In this document: piece by piece, positions 4,092 to 31,593 of the stretch
Position numbering within the stretch: the first letter of the stretch is position 1
How the letters are laid out: each line of letters begins with the position of its first letter
DNA from: Labia minor
Lineage: Eukaryota; Arthropoda; Insecta; Dermaptera; Spongiphoridae
Assembly: GCA_963082975.1 (NCBI GenBank)
Contig: OY720345.1
Location: 56,030,528-56,094,527 of the forward strand
DNA length: 64,000 nt
Reading direction: 5' to 3'
The notes under the pieces: generated by a model
What the model was told of the DNA's origin: nothing
The model's database searches: none
The model's input: only the letters and a program-made list of their open reading frames with translations
Translations under genes and position numbers: made by a program

Positions 4092-6697
<2,606 letters not shown>

Positions 6698-20206: not shown

Positions 20207-20381
20207 GATTGGTACATTTTTTTGAAATTCACACCAGAGATAGTATATAAAGAAAAATCGAGTTTTATTGATCACATCTCTGGGAAAAATCATCTTCATT
20301 AGTTTTTTCTTAATTTAAATGTATCTATTAATGCAAAAAAAAACAGATTTGATATTTTTAAATTTATTTTATTTATAATAT
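20207..20381. repeat. Rearranged family E / HINE-B piece
   Basis: The first part follows E (AAATTCACACCAGAGATAGT). From about 20325 the sequence matches the end of HINE-B in inverted orientation (CTATTAATGCAAAAAAAAAC..ATTTATAATA). An internal inversion or compound insertion next to the LTR element. Confidence 0.4.
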
Positions 20382-20959
20382 TGTAGGGAATTTCGTTGTC
20401 TAGGGGTTGTTTAGCAAAAAATATCTGTTTTGTTTAAATGGTTGCAAAAATATCGTTTTATTGAATAAAGATGAACAAGATAAAAATACAGTGTAAAAAT
20501 AAATGAAAATGTAACTTCTTCGTTTCTTGAATACTTCTGGCGATGTACAAAGGACTGTAAAGTGTCGACTGTAAAAACTATAAAACTAAAACTTAAACTG
20601 AAACTGTACAACTAAACTCGAATCGTGCCGGTGTTTCTTTTAAAAGGAAGTCCAAACAGCTGGAACTCGGTTTCTATTGGTCGGTGGCGTGGAGTGGGAG
20701 AATGGCGGCGACGGTGATGGTAGCGCATGGTGGGGGGGCGGCGACGGCGTCTGGGGCGCTCGCTGCTTGGAGCGGCGTTGAGAGGAAGCACCAACTCCGA
20801 CGATATTGTGGTTGAGAATGGCCGACCCTGAGGCAGTAAGATGTGCCAGGCTTTTGATGATTCGGACGGTGATGAGCCAAAAGGCTCCATTCCCACATTC
20901 GGCCGTCCTGCGATGTATTCGGCCTCGAATACGTTAATCTTCTTTTCCTTATCTCTCCA
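20382..20959 (-). repeat. 3' LTR
   Basis: 578 bp, direct repeat of 22503-23080. It supplies codons 396-510 of the upstream frame and a minus-strand AATAAA near 20460, a plausible polyadenylation signal. Confidence 0.8.
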
Positions 20960-22144
20960 CTTCGCCTTCGTTTTTCGATATTTATCGATTTTTTTCTTCA
21001 CGTAAAATAGTATATCTTGTGATTTGGATAAATCATTTATGCCTGTTTCTAAATTTAAATCCACATTAAAATCTTCATTTTCTTTATTTAAAACACTATC
21101 TTCAGTTTCAACTTTACTTGCAGTTTGTGTTTTATCATTATCTTTAAAACTTTCTTCTTTAATTTCGTCTAATTTTAAAAGGACATTTGCTAAATTTAAT
21201 TTTGCTTCTTTATTTCCTTCATTTGCTTGTTTTTCATAAATCACTTTTGCCAATTTTAAAACTTCCCACGCCAAATTTAAATTAGGAACGTCACCTTCTT
21301 CATTGTCTTTCTCACCATCTTCACTTTCAGGCATTGTTTCATCAAGATAAAAAATTTTATCATTGGGATCAATCTCTTCTTCACGAATTGTTTTATTTCG
21401 ATCTTCTGAAGTGCTTTCATCCTTATCAACTTCCATTGATTCATCGTCATTTACTTTATCCTCTTCATTAACTTCACTTTCGGTCTTTTTTTCATTATCA
21501 GTCGTTAGAGATTCTTTATCTTCATTCTTTTCTTCTTTGACTTCCTGTTTTTCAGTCTCTCCTTTTTTATTAGATTCTTTCTTTTCAGTCTCTTCTTTTT
21601 TCTTAGATTCTTTCTTTTCAGTCTCTTCTTTTTTCTTAGATTCTTTCTTTTCAGTCTCTTCTTTTTTACTAGATTCTTTCTTTTCAGTCTCTTCTTTTTT
21701 ATCAGATTCTTTCTTTTCAGTCTCTTCTTTTTTATCAGATTCTTTCTTATCAGTCTCTTCTTTTTTATTAGATTCTTTCTTTTCAGTCTCTTCTTTCTTA
21801 TCAGTCACTTCTTTTTCTTCTTCTTCATCATCTTCGTCCAGTGTACATAACCAAGATAGAATGTTACCTCTGATTAGTTCGTCGCTGTCTTGCTCAGGAA
21901 GATTGAGTATATTAGATGTTCGACGTAGTTGCTTACTGGTAAGTTTTTCCTTTAATTCTTCATTTTTCTTTTCGTATTCCTCAGAACCTTCAACAAAGTT
22001 GAACCCTTCAAAGTTGAGTAGGGTTTTTCTACTGAGGCGGCATGTTGCGTCACCCGTTATTATCGTTTTTAATCCTTTCAATTCATATGGTTTGGCCTCA
22101 TTGATGTTTTTTGCGATTTTTGGAAAAAAAAACAAATTCAACAT
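20612..22144 (-). CDS. DEK-like / NASP-like chimeric protein, 510 aa, in an LTR element
   Basis: Start at 22144; an in-frame TAA lies 15 nt upstream, so this is the first usable ATG. Residues about 40-100 resemble the pseudo-SAP region of the chromatin protein DEK: LLNFEGFNFVEGSEEYEKK, a lysine-rich helix, then SNILNLPEQDSDELIRGNIL and SWL. An acidic stretch leads to repeats of KKEETEKKES (about 115-200) and more acidic sequence. Residues about 286-330 (DVPNLNLAWEVLKLAKVIYE, then KEAKLNLANVLLKL) resemble a TPR repeat of the histone chaperone NASP, which also has a long acidic insert. From residue 396 the frame is LTR-encoded, with RPRRRRRPP and RHRR clusters. Such a protein would probably be nuclear (inference). 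Both homologies are from memory; expression is unknown. Confidence 0.7.
   Translation of the reverse strand: MLNLFFFPKIAKNINEAKPYELKGLKTIITGDATCRLSRKTLLNFEGFNFVEGSEEYEKKNEELKEKLTSKQLRRTSNILNLPEQDSDELIRGNILSWLCTLDEDDEEEEKEVTDKKEETEKKESNKKEETDKKESDKKEETEKKESDKKEETEKKESSKKEETEKKESKKKEETEKKESKKKEETEKKESNKKGETEKQEVKEEKNEDKESLTTDNEKKTESEVNEEDKVNDDESMEVDKDESTSEDRNKTIREEEIDPNDKIFYLDETMPESEDGEKDNEEGDVPNLNLAWEVLKLAKVIYEKQANEGNKEAKLNLANVLLKLDEIKEESFKDNDKTQTASKVETEDSVLNKENEDFNVDLNLETGINDLSKSQDILFYVKKKIDKYRKTKAKWRDKEKKINVFEAEYIAGRPNVGMEPFGSSPSESSKAWHILLPQGRPFSTTISSELVLPLNAAPSSERPRRRRRPPTMRYHHRRRHSPTPRHRPIETEFQLFGLPFKRNTGTIRV
20960..20977 (-). other. Polypurine-tract-like sequence
   Basis: The minus strand reads CGAAAAACGAAGGCGAAG just before the 3' LTR. 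It is purine-rich and in the right place for plus-strand priming, but lies within the open frame. Confidence 0.4.
21540..21805 (-). repeat. 30-nt coding minisatellite (KKEETEKKES)
   Basis: About nine units of 30 nt within the chimeric frame. Units differ at the codon after KKES (N, D, S or K), consistent with expansion in whole-codon multiples. Confidence 0.85.
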
Positions 22145-22174
22145 CTTAATATATTTTTATTTCTTTAATCTTTA

Positions 22175-22440
22175 CTGTATTAAATCTTGTATTTTCTTTC
22201 TTGCTGATTATTCACAAAAAAATCTTGAAAGTGAATAAGTTTCCAATCTTAAATCTTGTATCTTTTCCTTGACAATTATTCACAAAAATCTTGAGAGTAA
22301 ATAAATCTTCAATCTTGAATCTTGTATCTTTTCTTTAGAATTATTCACAAAAATCTTGAACGTGAATAAGACATGAATCTTGAATCTTGTATCTTTGCTT
22401 GAAGATTATTCACATAAAATCTTGAGAGTGAACAAGTCTA
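22175..22440 (-). repeat. Four ~63-bp tandem units in the leader
   Basis: Each unit carries AATCTTGTATCTTT..., ATTATTCACAAAAATCTTGA and GTGAATAAG (plus-strand reading). They lie between the primer-site-like sequence and the start codon, where LTR elements often carry repeats. Confidence 0.8.
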
Positions 22441-22483
22441 GAAATCTTCTTTTGCCCGAACGATAAACGAGTTGTTTTCAATC

Positions 22484-22500
22484 ACGGACTGAGCCTCCAA
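22484..22500 (-). other. Primer-binding-site-like sequence
   Basis: The minus strand reads TTGGAGGCTCAGTCCG just inside the 5' LTR. The TGG start suits pairing with a tRNA 3' CCA. The tRNA was not identified. Confidence 0.5.
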
Positions 22501-22502
22501 TT

Positions 22503-23080
22503 TGTAGGGAATTTCGTTGTCTAGGGGTTGTTTAGCAAAAAATATCTGTTTTGTTTAAATGGTTGCAAAAATATCGTTTTATTGAATAAAGATGAACAAG
22601 ATAAAAATACAGTGTAAAAATAAATGAAAATGTAACTTCTTCGTTTCTTGAATACTTCTGGCGATGTACAAAGGACTGTAAAGTGTCGACTGTAAAAACT
22701 ATAAAACTAAAACTTAAACTGAAACTGTACAACTAAACTCGAATCGTGCCGGTGTTTCTTTTAAAAGGAAGTCCAAACAGCTGGAACTCGGTTTCTATTG
22801 GTCGGTGGCGTGGAGTGGGAGAATGGCGGCGACGGTGATGGTAGCGCATGGTGGGGGGGCGGCGACGGCGTCTGGGGCGCTCGCTGCTTGGAGCGGCGTT
22901 GAGAGGAAGCACCAACTCCGACGATATTGTGGTTGAGAATGGCCGACCCTGAGGCAGTAAGATGTGCCAGGCTTTTGATGATTCGGACGGTGATGAGCCA
23001 AAAGGCTCCATTCCCACATTCGGCCGTCCTGCGATGTATTCGGCCTCGAATACGTTAATCTTCTTTTCCTTATCTCTCCA
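22503..23080 (-). repeat. 5' LTR
   Basis: Identical by eye to 20382-20959 (constant offset of 2121). The minus-strand frame 23017-22733 is simply the LTR copy of the chimeric protein's C-terminus and has no separate meaning. Confidence 0.8.
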
Positions 23081-23083
23081 CTT

Positions 23084-30757: not shown

Positions 30758-31047
30758 GTAGAAAAAGATGGCGGCCATTCATGCAAATATTAGCTTCCAA
30801 AATTGGACAGAGTCAGAATTCTACAATATTTCTTTAGAAGATTACATTCTAAAAAATCGTGGCGCGAAATCACTTCCGAGAGGGGAAGCCCTGACGATGA
30901 CAGCAATATATATGGCCATCTTGGTCACAGGGGTTGTTGGTAACGCCCTTGTATGCTTGGTCATCATTCGTAACTCTGTAATGCGGAGTGCCACCAACTA
31001 TTATCTCTTCAGTCTGGCTGTCTCCGACCTCACCTTTCTTATTGTGG
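30758..31047 (+). CDS. Neuromedin-U/PRXamide receptor-like GPCR, first coding exon
   Basis: Coding from ATG 30768 (context AAAAAGATGG) to a donor at 31048 (GTACGT). An acceptor-like T-rich tract ending TTTTAG lies at 30757, so an upstream non-coding exon is likely. The exon encodes about 93 residues. The extracellular N-terminus has three N-glycosylation sequons (NIS at 7, NWT at 12, NIS at 20). TM1 follows with the conserved [12 protein letters not shown], then an intracellular loop and the start of TM2, [13 protein letters not shown] with its conserved aspartate. [15 protein letters not shown] is typical of capa and pyrokinin receptors, which signal through G proteins at the plasma membrane; which of the two is undecided. 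Reading past the donor gives 57 more codons of intron only. No later exon recognised. Confidence 0.88.
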
Positions 31048-31052
31048 GTACG

Positions 31053-31064
31053 TTTCAACTTCAT
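31053..31064. repeat. 12-base flanking duplication, left
   Basis: TTTCAACTTCAT, repeated at 31594-31605. It begins at intron position +6 of the GPCR. Confidence 0.8.
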
Positions 31065-31593
31065 GTATTTATTAAAGCTTTTGTGGTTATTTTGATAATT
31101 ATTAAGGGAATTTTTATTAAAAGACCACATTGTTTGTATAAAATTTTTTATAAAATTAAAATAACTGTACAACGTTTCGACTGCTTATTCTGCAGTCGTT
31201 TTCAAGTAACCGTACGCTAGCTCCGATTCAAGCGACTCATGATGGGACACGTCATCTCTTATATAGGCAGTGATATTGGCTCCAATTTTCTCCCGCCAAT
31301 TTTAATATCACCATGAAGTCAGCAGCCATTGTTAAAGCAAGCGTTTACAATTAAGAAGTATGACAGTGCATTATGTCTTTACAATAAAGATAGTAAATTA
31401 TTGCTATAATCAAGATATATACATATATACACACTAGATTAATTATATAACATTCATATCTGACATGGGAGCAAGCGTACGGTTGCTTGAAAACGACTGC
31501 AGAATAAGCAGTCGAAACGTTGTGCAGTTATTTTAATTTAATAAATAATTTTATACAAACAATGTGGTCTTTTAATAAAAATTCCCTTAATAA
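31065..31593. mobile_element. Inverted-repeat element at the GPCR donor (Penelope-like?)
   Basis: 529 bp with long inverted arms: about 31101-31218 and 31482-31593, beginning ATTAAGGGAATTTTTATTAA and its complement. Each arm contains a strong stem, GACTGCAGAATAAGCAGTC, followed by GAAACGTTG. Similar stem-plus-GAAACG units occur in the terminal repeats of Penelope-like elements, whose ends may be inverted and whose target duplications are of variable length. The 12-base duplication fits that. No reverse transcriptase is present, so it is non-autonomous at most. About 36 bp at the left have no counterpart at the right. Confidence 0.6.

Follow-up and report, generated by a model that had tools for sequence, protein, structure and literature searches.

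A non-autonomous Ty3/gypsy element in Labia minor joins a DEK-like Gag domain to sequence captured from host NASP and an ADD-domain gene

Between two direct repeats in the genome of Labia minor lies a single open frame that begins like DEK and continues like NASP. The locus was studied within a window of 64,000 nucleotides of contig OY720345.1, the whole stretch of DNA that was analysed. A first-pass annotation had read it as an LTR element whose gag-pol was replaced by captured parts of these two host genes, or of one host fusion gene. Which parts of the frame derive from host genes, and how did they come to stand between two LTRs?

The element is oriented on the minus strand (Table 1). The annotated 578-bp direct repeats are real and identical (582 of 582 bases at 20381-20962 and 22502-23083), but the true LTRs, which start with TG and end with CA, are only 516 bp long; most full-length genome matches stop 61 bases before the end of the 578-bp repeat. 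The two LTR copies are identical. Next to the upstream LTR stands internal 3′-end sequence, a pattern that a piece of a head-to-tail array would show. Such an array, located on C5, has at least four units with zero differences among them, and the window unit differs from these units at 4 of 2121 bases. The 510-codon frame between and into the repeats was confirmed. In the autonomous relative L012 the internal 3′ end lies mostly beyond the stop codon, whereas the window element reads through it in frame.

Table 1. Features of the element in the window (positions within the 64,000-nucleotide stretch).
Feature	Position	Strand	Remark
5′ LTR, 516 bp, TG...CA	22503..23018	-	same as 3′ LTR
3′ LTR	20382..20897	-	~90% identical to LTR of autonomous L012
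65-bp internal-3′-end leftover of neighbouring unit (array remnant)	23019..23083	-	included in the annotated LTR
Putative primer-binding site	22481..22499	-	imperfect relative to the 18-nt site exact in L013 and L020
Leader containing some four tandem repeats of 65 bp	22183..22439	-	leader common to autonomous L012
Single 510-aa frame	20612..22144	-	extends into 3′ LTR
DEK-like N-terminal Gag domain	21830..22144	-	residues 1-105
33-bp (11-codon) Lys/Glu-rich repeats, 7.7 units	21549..21801	-	like that in the acidic insert of host NASP
Segment derived from host NASP: acidic insert and start of next TPR	21161..21835	-	upstream end uncertain (low-complexity)
Segment derived from host ADD-domain gene	21013..21171	-	overlap with the NASP match is the 11-nt junction microhomology
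Short stretch	20950..21012	-	partly common to family F elements
Internal 3′ end common to L012	20898..20949	-	in-frame read-through

The other hallmarks of an LTR element were examined in the window copy and in its relatives. The annotated TGG-type primer-site-like sequence lies internal to the upstream LTR, separated from its end by three bases; the purine-rich tract is there, but weak. In the sister copies L013 and L020 an 18-nt primer site is exact, and it complements the 3′ terminus, once CCA is appended, of a tRNA-like gene (L045) in the same genome. The sole genomic match to the tRNA search pattern was called Leu(AAG) by ARAGORN; we read it as a decayed tRNA-Pro. LTRs were present around NASP/ADD copies in a scripted search, by which the surroundings of L017 and L018 were mainly satellite repeats; for family D, LTRs were seen in L020. 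Target-site duplications (TSDs) of 4 bp flank L006, L011, L014 and L016. No TSD was found at the ends of the window copy, and the scripted search gave no TG...CA with TSD for the family E copies L021, L022 and L028. Copies within TA runs are uninformative for TSD scoring.

A search of the 604-Mb genome, as the annotation had proposed, revealed 59 rows of at least 93% identity to the N-terminal piece; in 56 of these the match lies in a long open frame and contains no stop. This multicopy state, the autonomous Gag-Pol relatives and the piece of a third protein (from an ADD-domain gene) were absent from the annotation. The internal region of the window element has no reverse transcriptase (RT) or integrase frame and no such Pfam match. 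L012, in contrast, encodes a 1398-aa Gag-Pol with a DEK-type domain at the start of Gag. Both L012 and L021 contain RT, RNase H and integrase above the Pfam cut-offs and in Gypsy order (PF00078, PF17917/17919, PF17921, PF00665), while RVP exceeded the cut-off only in L012, zf-CCHC only in L021, and Retrotrans_gag in neither. Domain order, LTRs, primer site and TSDs identify the lineage as Ty3/gypsy LTR retrotransposons, and the window element is a non-autonomous derivative. It is 92% identical to L012 from the LTR through the leader to the DEK domain, and 91% from the 3′ end through the LTR. 'Gag-pol replaced' was partly right: pol and most of gag are gone, but the first ~105 Gag residues are kept. 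Among viral contigs, 12 pattern matches to the DEK-like piece yielded 0 confirmed cases, and a search of literature titles found no report of these elements.

When the frame was split and compared with PDB, the annotated order was recovered, DEK-like (E = 1.9e-4) and then NASP-like (E = 2.4e-6). The DEK part is, however, not a captured host gene. A module map of 18 frames placed the DEK-like domain at the Gag-Pol N-terminus of intact Ty3/gypsy elements of the same genome, and it is common to seven families. Residues 1-110 thus match gag, an outcome that the annotation itself had named as contrary to its reading, and which applies to the DEK-like half. Identity of the DEK-like part to its counterpart in an autonomous Gag-Pol is 89%, against 26% to the host DEK exon.

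Could the likeness to DEK be convergence in a Lys/Glu-rich helical Gag region? No Pfam model matches the DEK-like region (the window frame had 0 Pfam matches, and its pieces only chance-level ones), and a single-sequence fold prediction was poor (pLDDT 47.8). Yet a profile of the seven families retrieved only DEK chains below E = 0.1 (best 5.9e-15). Run as a local profile against the 114 frames of L036, the multi-exon host DEK gene, the same seven singled out the host DEK exon (2e-14). The fold predicted from 12 sequences, one of which was the host DEK exon, had a pLDDT of 92.8; the top five PDB structures matching it were all DEK (TM 0.62-0.80). Profile and predicted fold both recover the DEK pseudo-SAP/SAP region and mark the Gag domain as a true DEK relative; convergence is extremely improbable. 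The C-terminal DEK_C gave no Pfam match among nine element frames scanned, and its three matches in the genome all lie at loci other than the elements. Two of these three, L034 and L035, are other genes, by our reading a slingshot-type phosphatase and a SWIB-type gene; L036 is DEK.

Nine nucleosome-DNA contact residues of DEK, including R107 and K124, are named in PMC12263440. The positions of R107 and K124, mapped by eye to K23 and R39, are basic in all seven families, whereas the other seven contacts differ among families or have been lost; DEK's arginine anchor for the acidic patch precedes the aligned stretch. The domain is under purifying selection, with 16 S and 16 N changes over 15 sequences (ratio 0.26, p = 2.5e-4). 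The domain may tether Gag to nucleosomes. None of the literature titles searched reports a Gypsy Gag that begins with a DEK-type domain.

As annotated, the LTR element does hold chromatin-gene sequence of its host within the open frame, and NASP is one source. Of two candidates scored, only L029 has an SHNi-TPR match, and it is the host NASP gene. Its DNA is 84.4% identical to the window segment over 703 columns, and 89% to the NASP segment of L013; this part is a genuine capture from host NASP. What the element took from it is confined to the acidic insert and the beginning of the TPR after it; the first TPRs are absent and SHNi-TPR was not found in the element cargo, the host gene being its sole location. 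The NASP family combination of TPRs with an acidic insert plus SHNi-TPR is therefore incomplete. A second host gene is indeed involved, as annotated, but it is an ADD-domain (ATRX-like) gene rather than DEK: the segment is 81% identical to the host gene L033 over 170 columns. The first 68 residues of L033 match the ATRX ADD finger (E = 0.0042); the entire frame gave no match in Pfam or PDB.

There are two types of NASP-to-ADD junction. At one, the source genes have an exact run of 7 nt in common, which grows to 11 nt if one mismatch is allowed; at the other, the exact run is 10 nt. Among joins made at random, 0.35% share at least 7 nt and 0.15% at least 8 nt. In L032 and L023, where the module order is ADD-NASP-ADD, the ADD-to-NASP junction shows no clear microhomology. 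The annotation had expected intron-containing parents. Host DEK is multi-exon, but the source segments of NASP (in L029) and of the ADD gene (in L033) each form one uninterrupted frame, so the cargo of the window element itself cannot show intron loss.

Sister families carry other cargo. That of families C and D (D833) is intron-free, whereas GT-AG introns, 82 and 232 bp long, interrupt the two source genes; hence, this cargo derives from spliced mRNA. Host sequence lies inside LTRs, with introns absent for C and D833. One of these two captures is 99-100% identical to its source gene within the 340 bases examined. A coiled-coil cargo had no match in PDB; its source is presumably a Girdin-like gene. 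The annotation had considered transduction of host genes rare, but here the sources include four host genes, and the cargo of D915 and D930 likely adds two more source loci.

Does the cargo serve the element? The NASP/ADD acidic sequence and the DEK-type domain could act together on histone supply or heterochromatin and thereby aid silencing evasion. All three parts relate to chromatin proteins, the open frames of the close copies are nearly universal, which could mean that the fusion protein matters, and an identical NASP-ADD junction occurs in families whose capsid regions are only 35-39% identical. Moreover, in ten open copies each of the seven gap runs has a length divisible by three, and the 79 changes in these copies include 0 stops where 4.7 would be expected if unselected, although these copies were chosen for being open and the stop-bearing L007 was left out. 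Conversely, the NASP fragment lacks the first TPRs and SHNi-TPR, sister families carry unrelated cargo such as the coiled coil, and template switching in A/G-rich low-complexity sequence would also favour acidic or Lys/Glu-rich genes. The dN/dS of the cargo is mostly 0.5-0.9 relative to the host and 0.71-0.90 among copies. The NASP segment had 6 S and 20 N changes over 14 sequences (ratio 0.71, p = 0.44), a borderline contrast with the DEK-like domain (Fisher p = 0.056); the counts for the ADD segment in 14 sequences (1 S, 2 N) are too small for use. A functional cargo is therefore unlikely, and most likely the truncated, near-neutral cargo without SHNi-TPR is a passenger. Slightly more doubtful still is a broader scenario, in which the Gag of this Gypsy lineage docks on nucleosomes by its DEK-type domain, helper-dependent members repeatedly capture host mRNA in Gag fusions, and the acidic NASP and ADD/ATRX-type cargo has been selected for disturbing histone deposition or heterochromatin at the element.

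Two alternatives concern the entry of the cargo. A duplicated host DEK-NASP (or NASP-ADD) fusion gene with incidental LTRs would explain one open frame with its domains in order. This origin, which the annotation had allowed, has next to no probability: in the host, DEK (L036), NASP (L029) and the ADD gene (L033) each occupy a locus of their own, the DEK-like part resembles the autonomous Gag-Pol far more than the host DEK exon, LTR, leader and 3′ end match the autonomous element on both sides, and dozens of copies are dispersed. Entry as DNA, by ectopic recombination or read-through transduction, is compatible with intron-free NASP and ADD host segments, and tandem arrays reveal DNA recombination acting on these elements; the spliced sequence from two intron-bearing genes in families C and D nevertheless makes it improbable, and the ADD-NASP-ADD order and NASP-to-ADD microhomology suit RNA copy choice.

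Very probably, the elements are Gag-host fusions made by template switching and moved in trans by autonomous Gypsy elements. The series would start from an autonomous parent like L012, with a Gag opening with the DEK-type domain. RT may have switched templates inside particles with packaged host mRNA, so that a relative lost pol and gained the NASP-ADD chimera in frame. L013, which retains capsid, zinc knuckles and protease, would represent the intermediate. A later internal deletion, or another switch, would have removed the rest of Gag and joined the DEK-like domain to NASP-ADD, giving the window type, which enzymes of autonomous elements would copy in trans. We infer trans-mobilisation from the LTR, leader and 3′ end in common with L012 and from the copy number; the order of steps and template switching as the mechanism are likewise our reconstruction. 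Several observations count against this account: the missing TSD and the imperfect primer site of the window copy, the uninterrupted host segments behind its own cargo, the ADD-to-NASP junctions that lack clear microhomology, the borderline contrast in selection between domain and cargo, and the nearly universal open frames.

The maize LTR retroelement Bs1 contains three transduced host gene segments (PMC13317346). Both systems combine several host-gene fragments in an LTR element with a hybrid frame; here, however, several families of an animal Ty3/gypsy lineage sample several host genes, helpers are present, one cassette is common to distant families, and a DEK-like Gag domain is added. In acute transforming retroviruses, spliced host mRNA is fused to 5′ gag (gag-onc), pol is replaced and a helper is needed. 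The in-frame host fusion to 5′ gag replacing pol is the same, as is the presumed need for a helper, but here it occurs in a germline retrotransposon, involves chromatin and other genes, and has dozens of copies and no known phenotype. In metazoans, the machinery of LTR elements also copies host mRNA (Tan et al. 2016, via PMC8232201). By contrast, the present chimera retains both LTRs and multiplies as a family. Such retroposition reportedly involves template switching. The chromatin tethers of MLV p12 and foamy virus Gag are peptides. Like them, the present Gag includes a part with predicted nucleosome binding, but here the putative binder is a folded DEK-type domain.

One animal genome thus contains the autonomous parents together with likely intermediates, the end products and the source genes of the host, which makes the process traceable step by step. 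Moreover, the DEK-type domain that opens this Gypsy Gag is a concrete, testable candidate for the means by which a retrotransposon may hold on to chromatin.

We conclude that the window carries a helper-dependent Ty3/gypsy derivative, in which a DEK-type Gag domain is fused to fragments of the host NASP gene and a host ADD-domain gene. Its direct repeats are identical (582/582 bases), and flank and extend into a single 510-aa frame on the minus strand. The repeats and the frame were in the first-pass annotation, which gave a repeat length of 578 bp. A search of the window's own genome (604 Mb, 71 contigs; 40 of 282 candidates scored) returned 66 match rows, and hence the element is repeated. 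Most of the full-length rows stop 61 bases before the end of the annotated repeat, which sets the LTR at 516 bp.

On contig C5, at least four head-to-tail units without a single difference among them lie in a TA run; compared with these, 4 of 2121 bases are different in the window unit. Together with the 65-bp internal leftover beside its LTR, this suggests that the window copy is a fragment of an array of this type. A TSD was not found for the window copy. The TSD is 4 bp in the copies L006, L011, L014 and L016; the 6 bp first given for the latter two came from taking an inner boundary. Arrays with identical or near-identical units occur in families A, B and D, with unequal exchange or circle insertion as candidate mechanisms. 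Satellite arrays adjoin copies of several families, and an insertion preference for satellite DNA is possible.

Features in the window and at related loci of the same genome
Locus	Coordinates	Strand	Feature
Window	4607-6365	plus	Two frames resembling a decayed hAT-type DNA transposon, by eye; Pfam, weak zinc-finger match only
Window	20382-20897	minus	LTR, 516 bp, identical to the next
Window	22503-23018	minus	LTR, 516 bp
Window	23019-23083		Internal-region 3' end, 65 bp, right of LTR
Window	30762-31220	plus	Rhodopsin-type GPCR exon (PF00001, 6e-9)
C5	65615086-65624086		Head-to-tail array
L016	1497-9261		Head-to-tail array
L019	1-10000		Head-to-tail array
L015	1-3967		~160-bp satellite array
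L017	1-7601		~160-bp satellite array
L018	1-2703 and 6800-10000		~160-bp satellite arrays
L026	6522-9926	plus	1135-aa frame adjoining family E fragment; first residues Ty1/copia-type-Gag-like, by eye

The DEK part had been taken for captured cargo. Instead, it heads the Gag-Pol polyprotein of Ty3/gypsy elements (examples read; six scanned by Pfam). In L012 (1398 aa) and L021 (1422 aa), it is followed by a capsid-type gag, CCHC knuckles, protease, RT, RNase H and integrase. With residues 1-105 as query, the genome search returned 140 rows (150 of 260 candidates scored). Identity was at least 93% in 59 rows, the window included, of which 57 lacked a stop in the match and 56 also lay in a frame open for 457 aa or more; 15 of the 59 loci were read, counting the four array units. 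Many lower-identity rows lay inside frames of 700-1430 aa.

Seven families (A-G) share the domain, and the other six are 29-89% identical to the window's. In the PDB, their joint profile matched human DEK (E=5.9e-15) and nothing else below 0.1; it also found the host DEK exon at 2e-14 among 114 plus-strand frames at that locus. An AlphaFold model from 12 sequences, including the host exon, had a mean pLDDT of 92.8. Its top five Foldseek matches were DEK, four of them nucleosome-bound, and no viral matches were found at E 0.001 or better. Among the nine DNA-contact residues of human DEK named in PMC12263440, two are basic in all seven families, while the others vary. Host DEK is multi-exon and its exon is only 26% identical to the window domain, which argues that the domain entered Gag long ago. 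It is dispensable in some helper-dependent copies, since L031 and L032 (family F) have lost it yet keep capsid, knuckles and cargo.

In contrast, the proposed NASP capture held up. Host NASP lies in one frame of 707 aa without interruption. Its identity to the window element is 84% over 703 alignment columns, and to the intermediate-type element L013 it is 89% over 606, which indicates that the NASP-like part was captured from this gene. The cargo consists of the acidic insert plus the beginning of the following TPR. As a genome query it gave 80 matches (100/100 candidates scored); C1:91120469 is the host gene and the others, where read, sit inside elements. The sole genome match of the SHNi-TPR, of two candidates scored, is at host NASP. 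The sequence after the NASP cargo derives from a second host gene (81% over 170 columns), whose N-terminal stretch matches the ATRX ADD domain (E=0.0042). At the NASP-to-ADD switch in families A and B and in L031 and L032 of family F, the sources share 7 exact bases (11 with one mismatch); at a different junction, that of L024 and L023, they share 10. Random joins of the two genes share a run of at least 7 in 0.35%. The order is ADD-NASP-ADD in L032 and L023, and clear microhomology was not found at their ADD-to-NASP junction. Cargo DNA of families B and F is 84-92% identical whereas their capsid regions are 35-39% identical, which indicates that the cassette passed between families.

The window element matches the autonomous L012 at 92% over LTR, leader and DEK domain and at 91% over the 3' end and LTR, and its match to L013 extends through the whole cargo (93%). 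The simplest series, with its direction inferred, would start from the L012 type, pass through the L013 type with cargo in place of pol, and reach the window type by loss of the remainder of gag.

Synonymous and non-synonymous changes numbered 16 each in the DEK-like domain (15 sequences; ratio 0.26, p=2.5e-4), against 6 and 20 in the NASP segment (14 sequences; ratio 0.71, p=0.44), a borderline contrast (Fisher p=0.056). Pairwise ratios agreed, both pooled (0.22 vs 0.75) and in family A alone (0.35 vs 0.90). Between cargo and host NASP, 14 of 15 ratios were 0.49-0.93 and L032 (67 codons) gave 1.93; of 22 sequences entered, L023 yielded no frame, and no module was obtained for six. Ten open-frame A copies, a set biased toward openness by excluding L007, which has a stop, carry 79 changes, among which 4.7 stops would be expected if selection were absent; each of their seven gap runs has a length divisible by three.

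Sister families carry other cargo. Nine D833 copies without stops (99-100%) hold a 310-aa piece from a coiled-coil gene, which on C9 matches in four separate blocks; the two blocks read (100% and 99.4%) are separated by a 232-bp GT-AG intron. Family C cargo matches a C1 gene at 96-97%, and the gene's 82-bp GT-AG intron is absent from the element. D915 cargo matches C1:117798802 at 97% aa, and D930 cargo matches C9:46657569, where a joined query makes the percentage not meaningful. With NASP and the ADD gene, four host genes are shown as sources, and the D915 and D930 loci are likely two more. Two captures are of spliced RNA, which, with the multiple sources, speaks for template switching, inside packaged particles, between the RNAs of element and host. 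Such switching is described for plant LTR elements in the review PMC13317346.

Within the open-licence PMC texts, the new points are the DEK-type Gag domain, the number of captures found together in one genome, and the transfer of a single cassette from family to family. The kind of event itself is not new. Gag-onc fusions and Bs1 are known instances of it.
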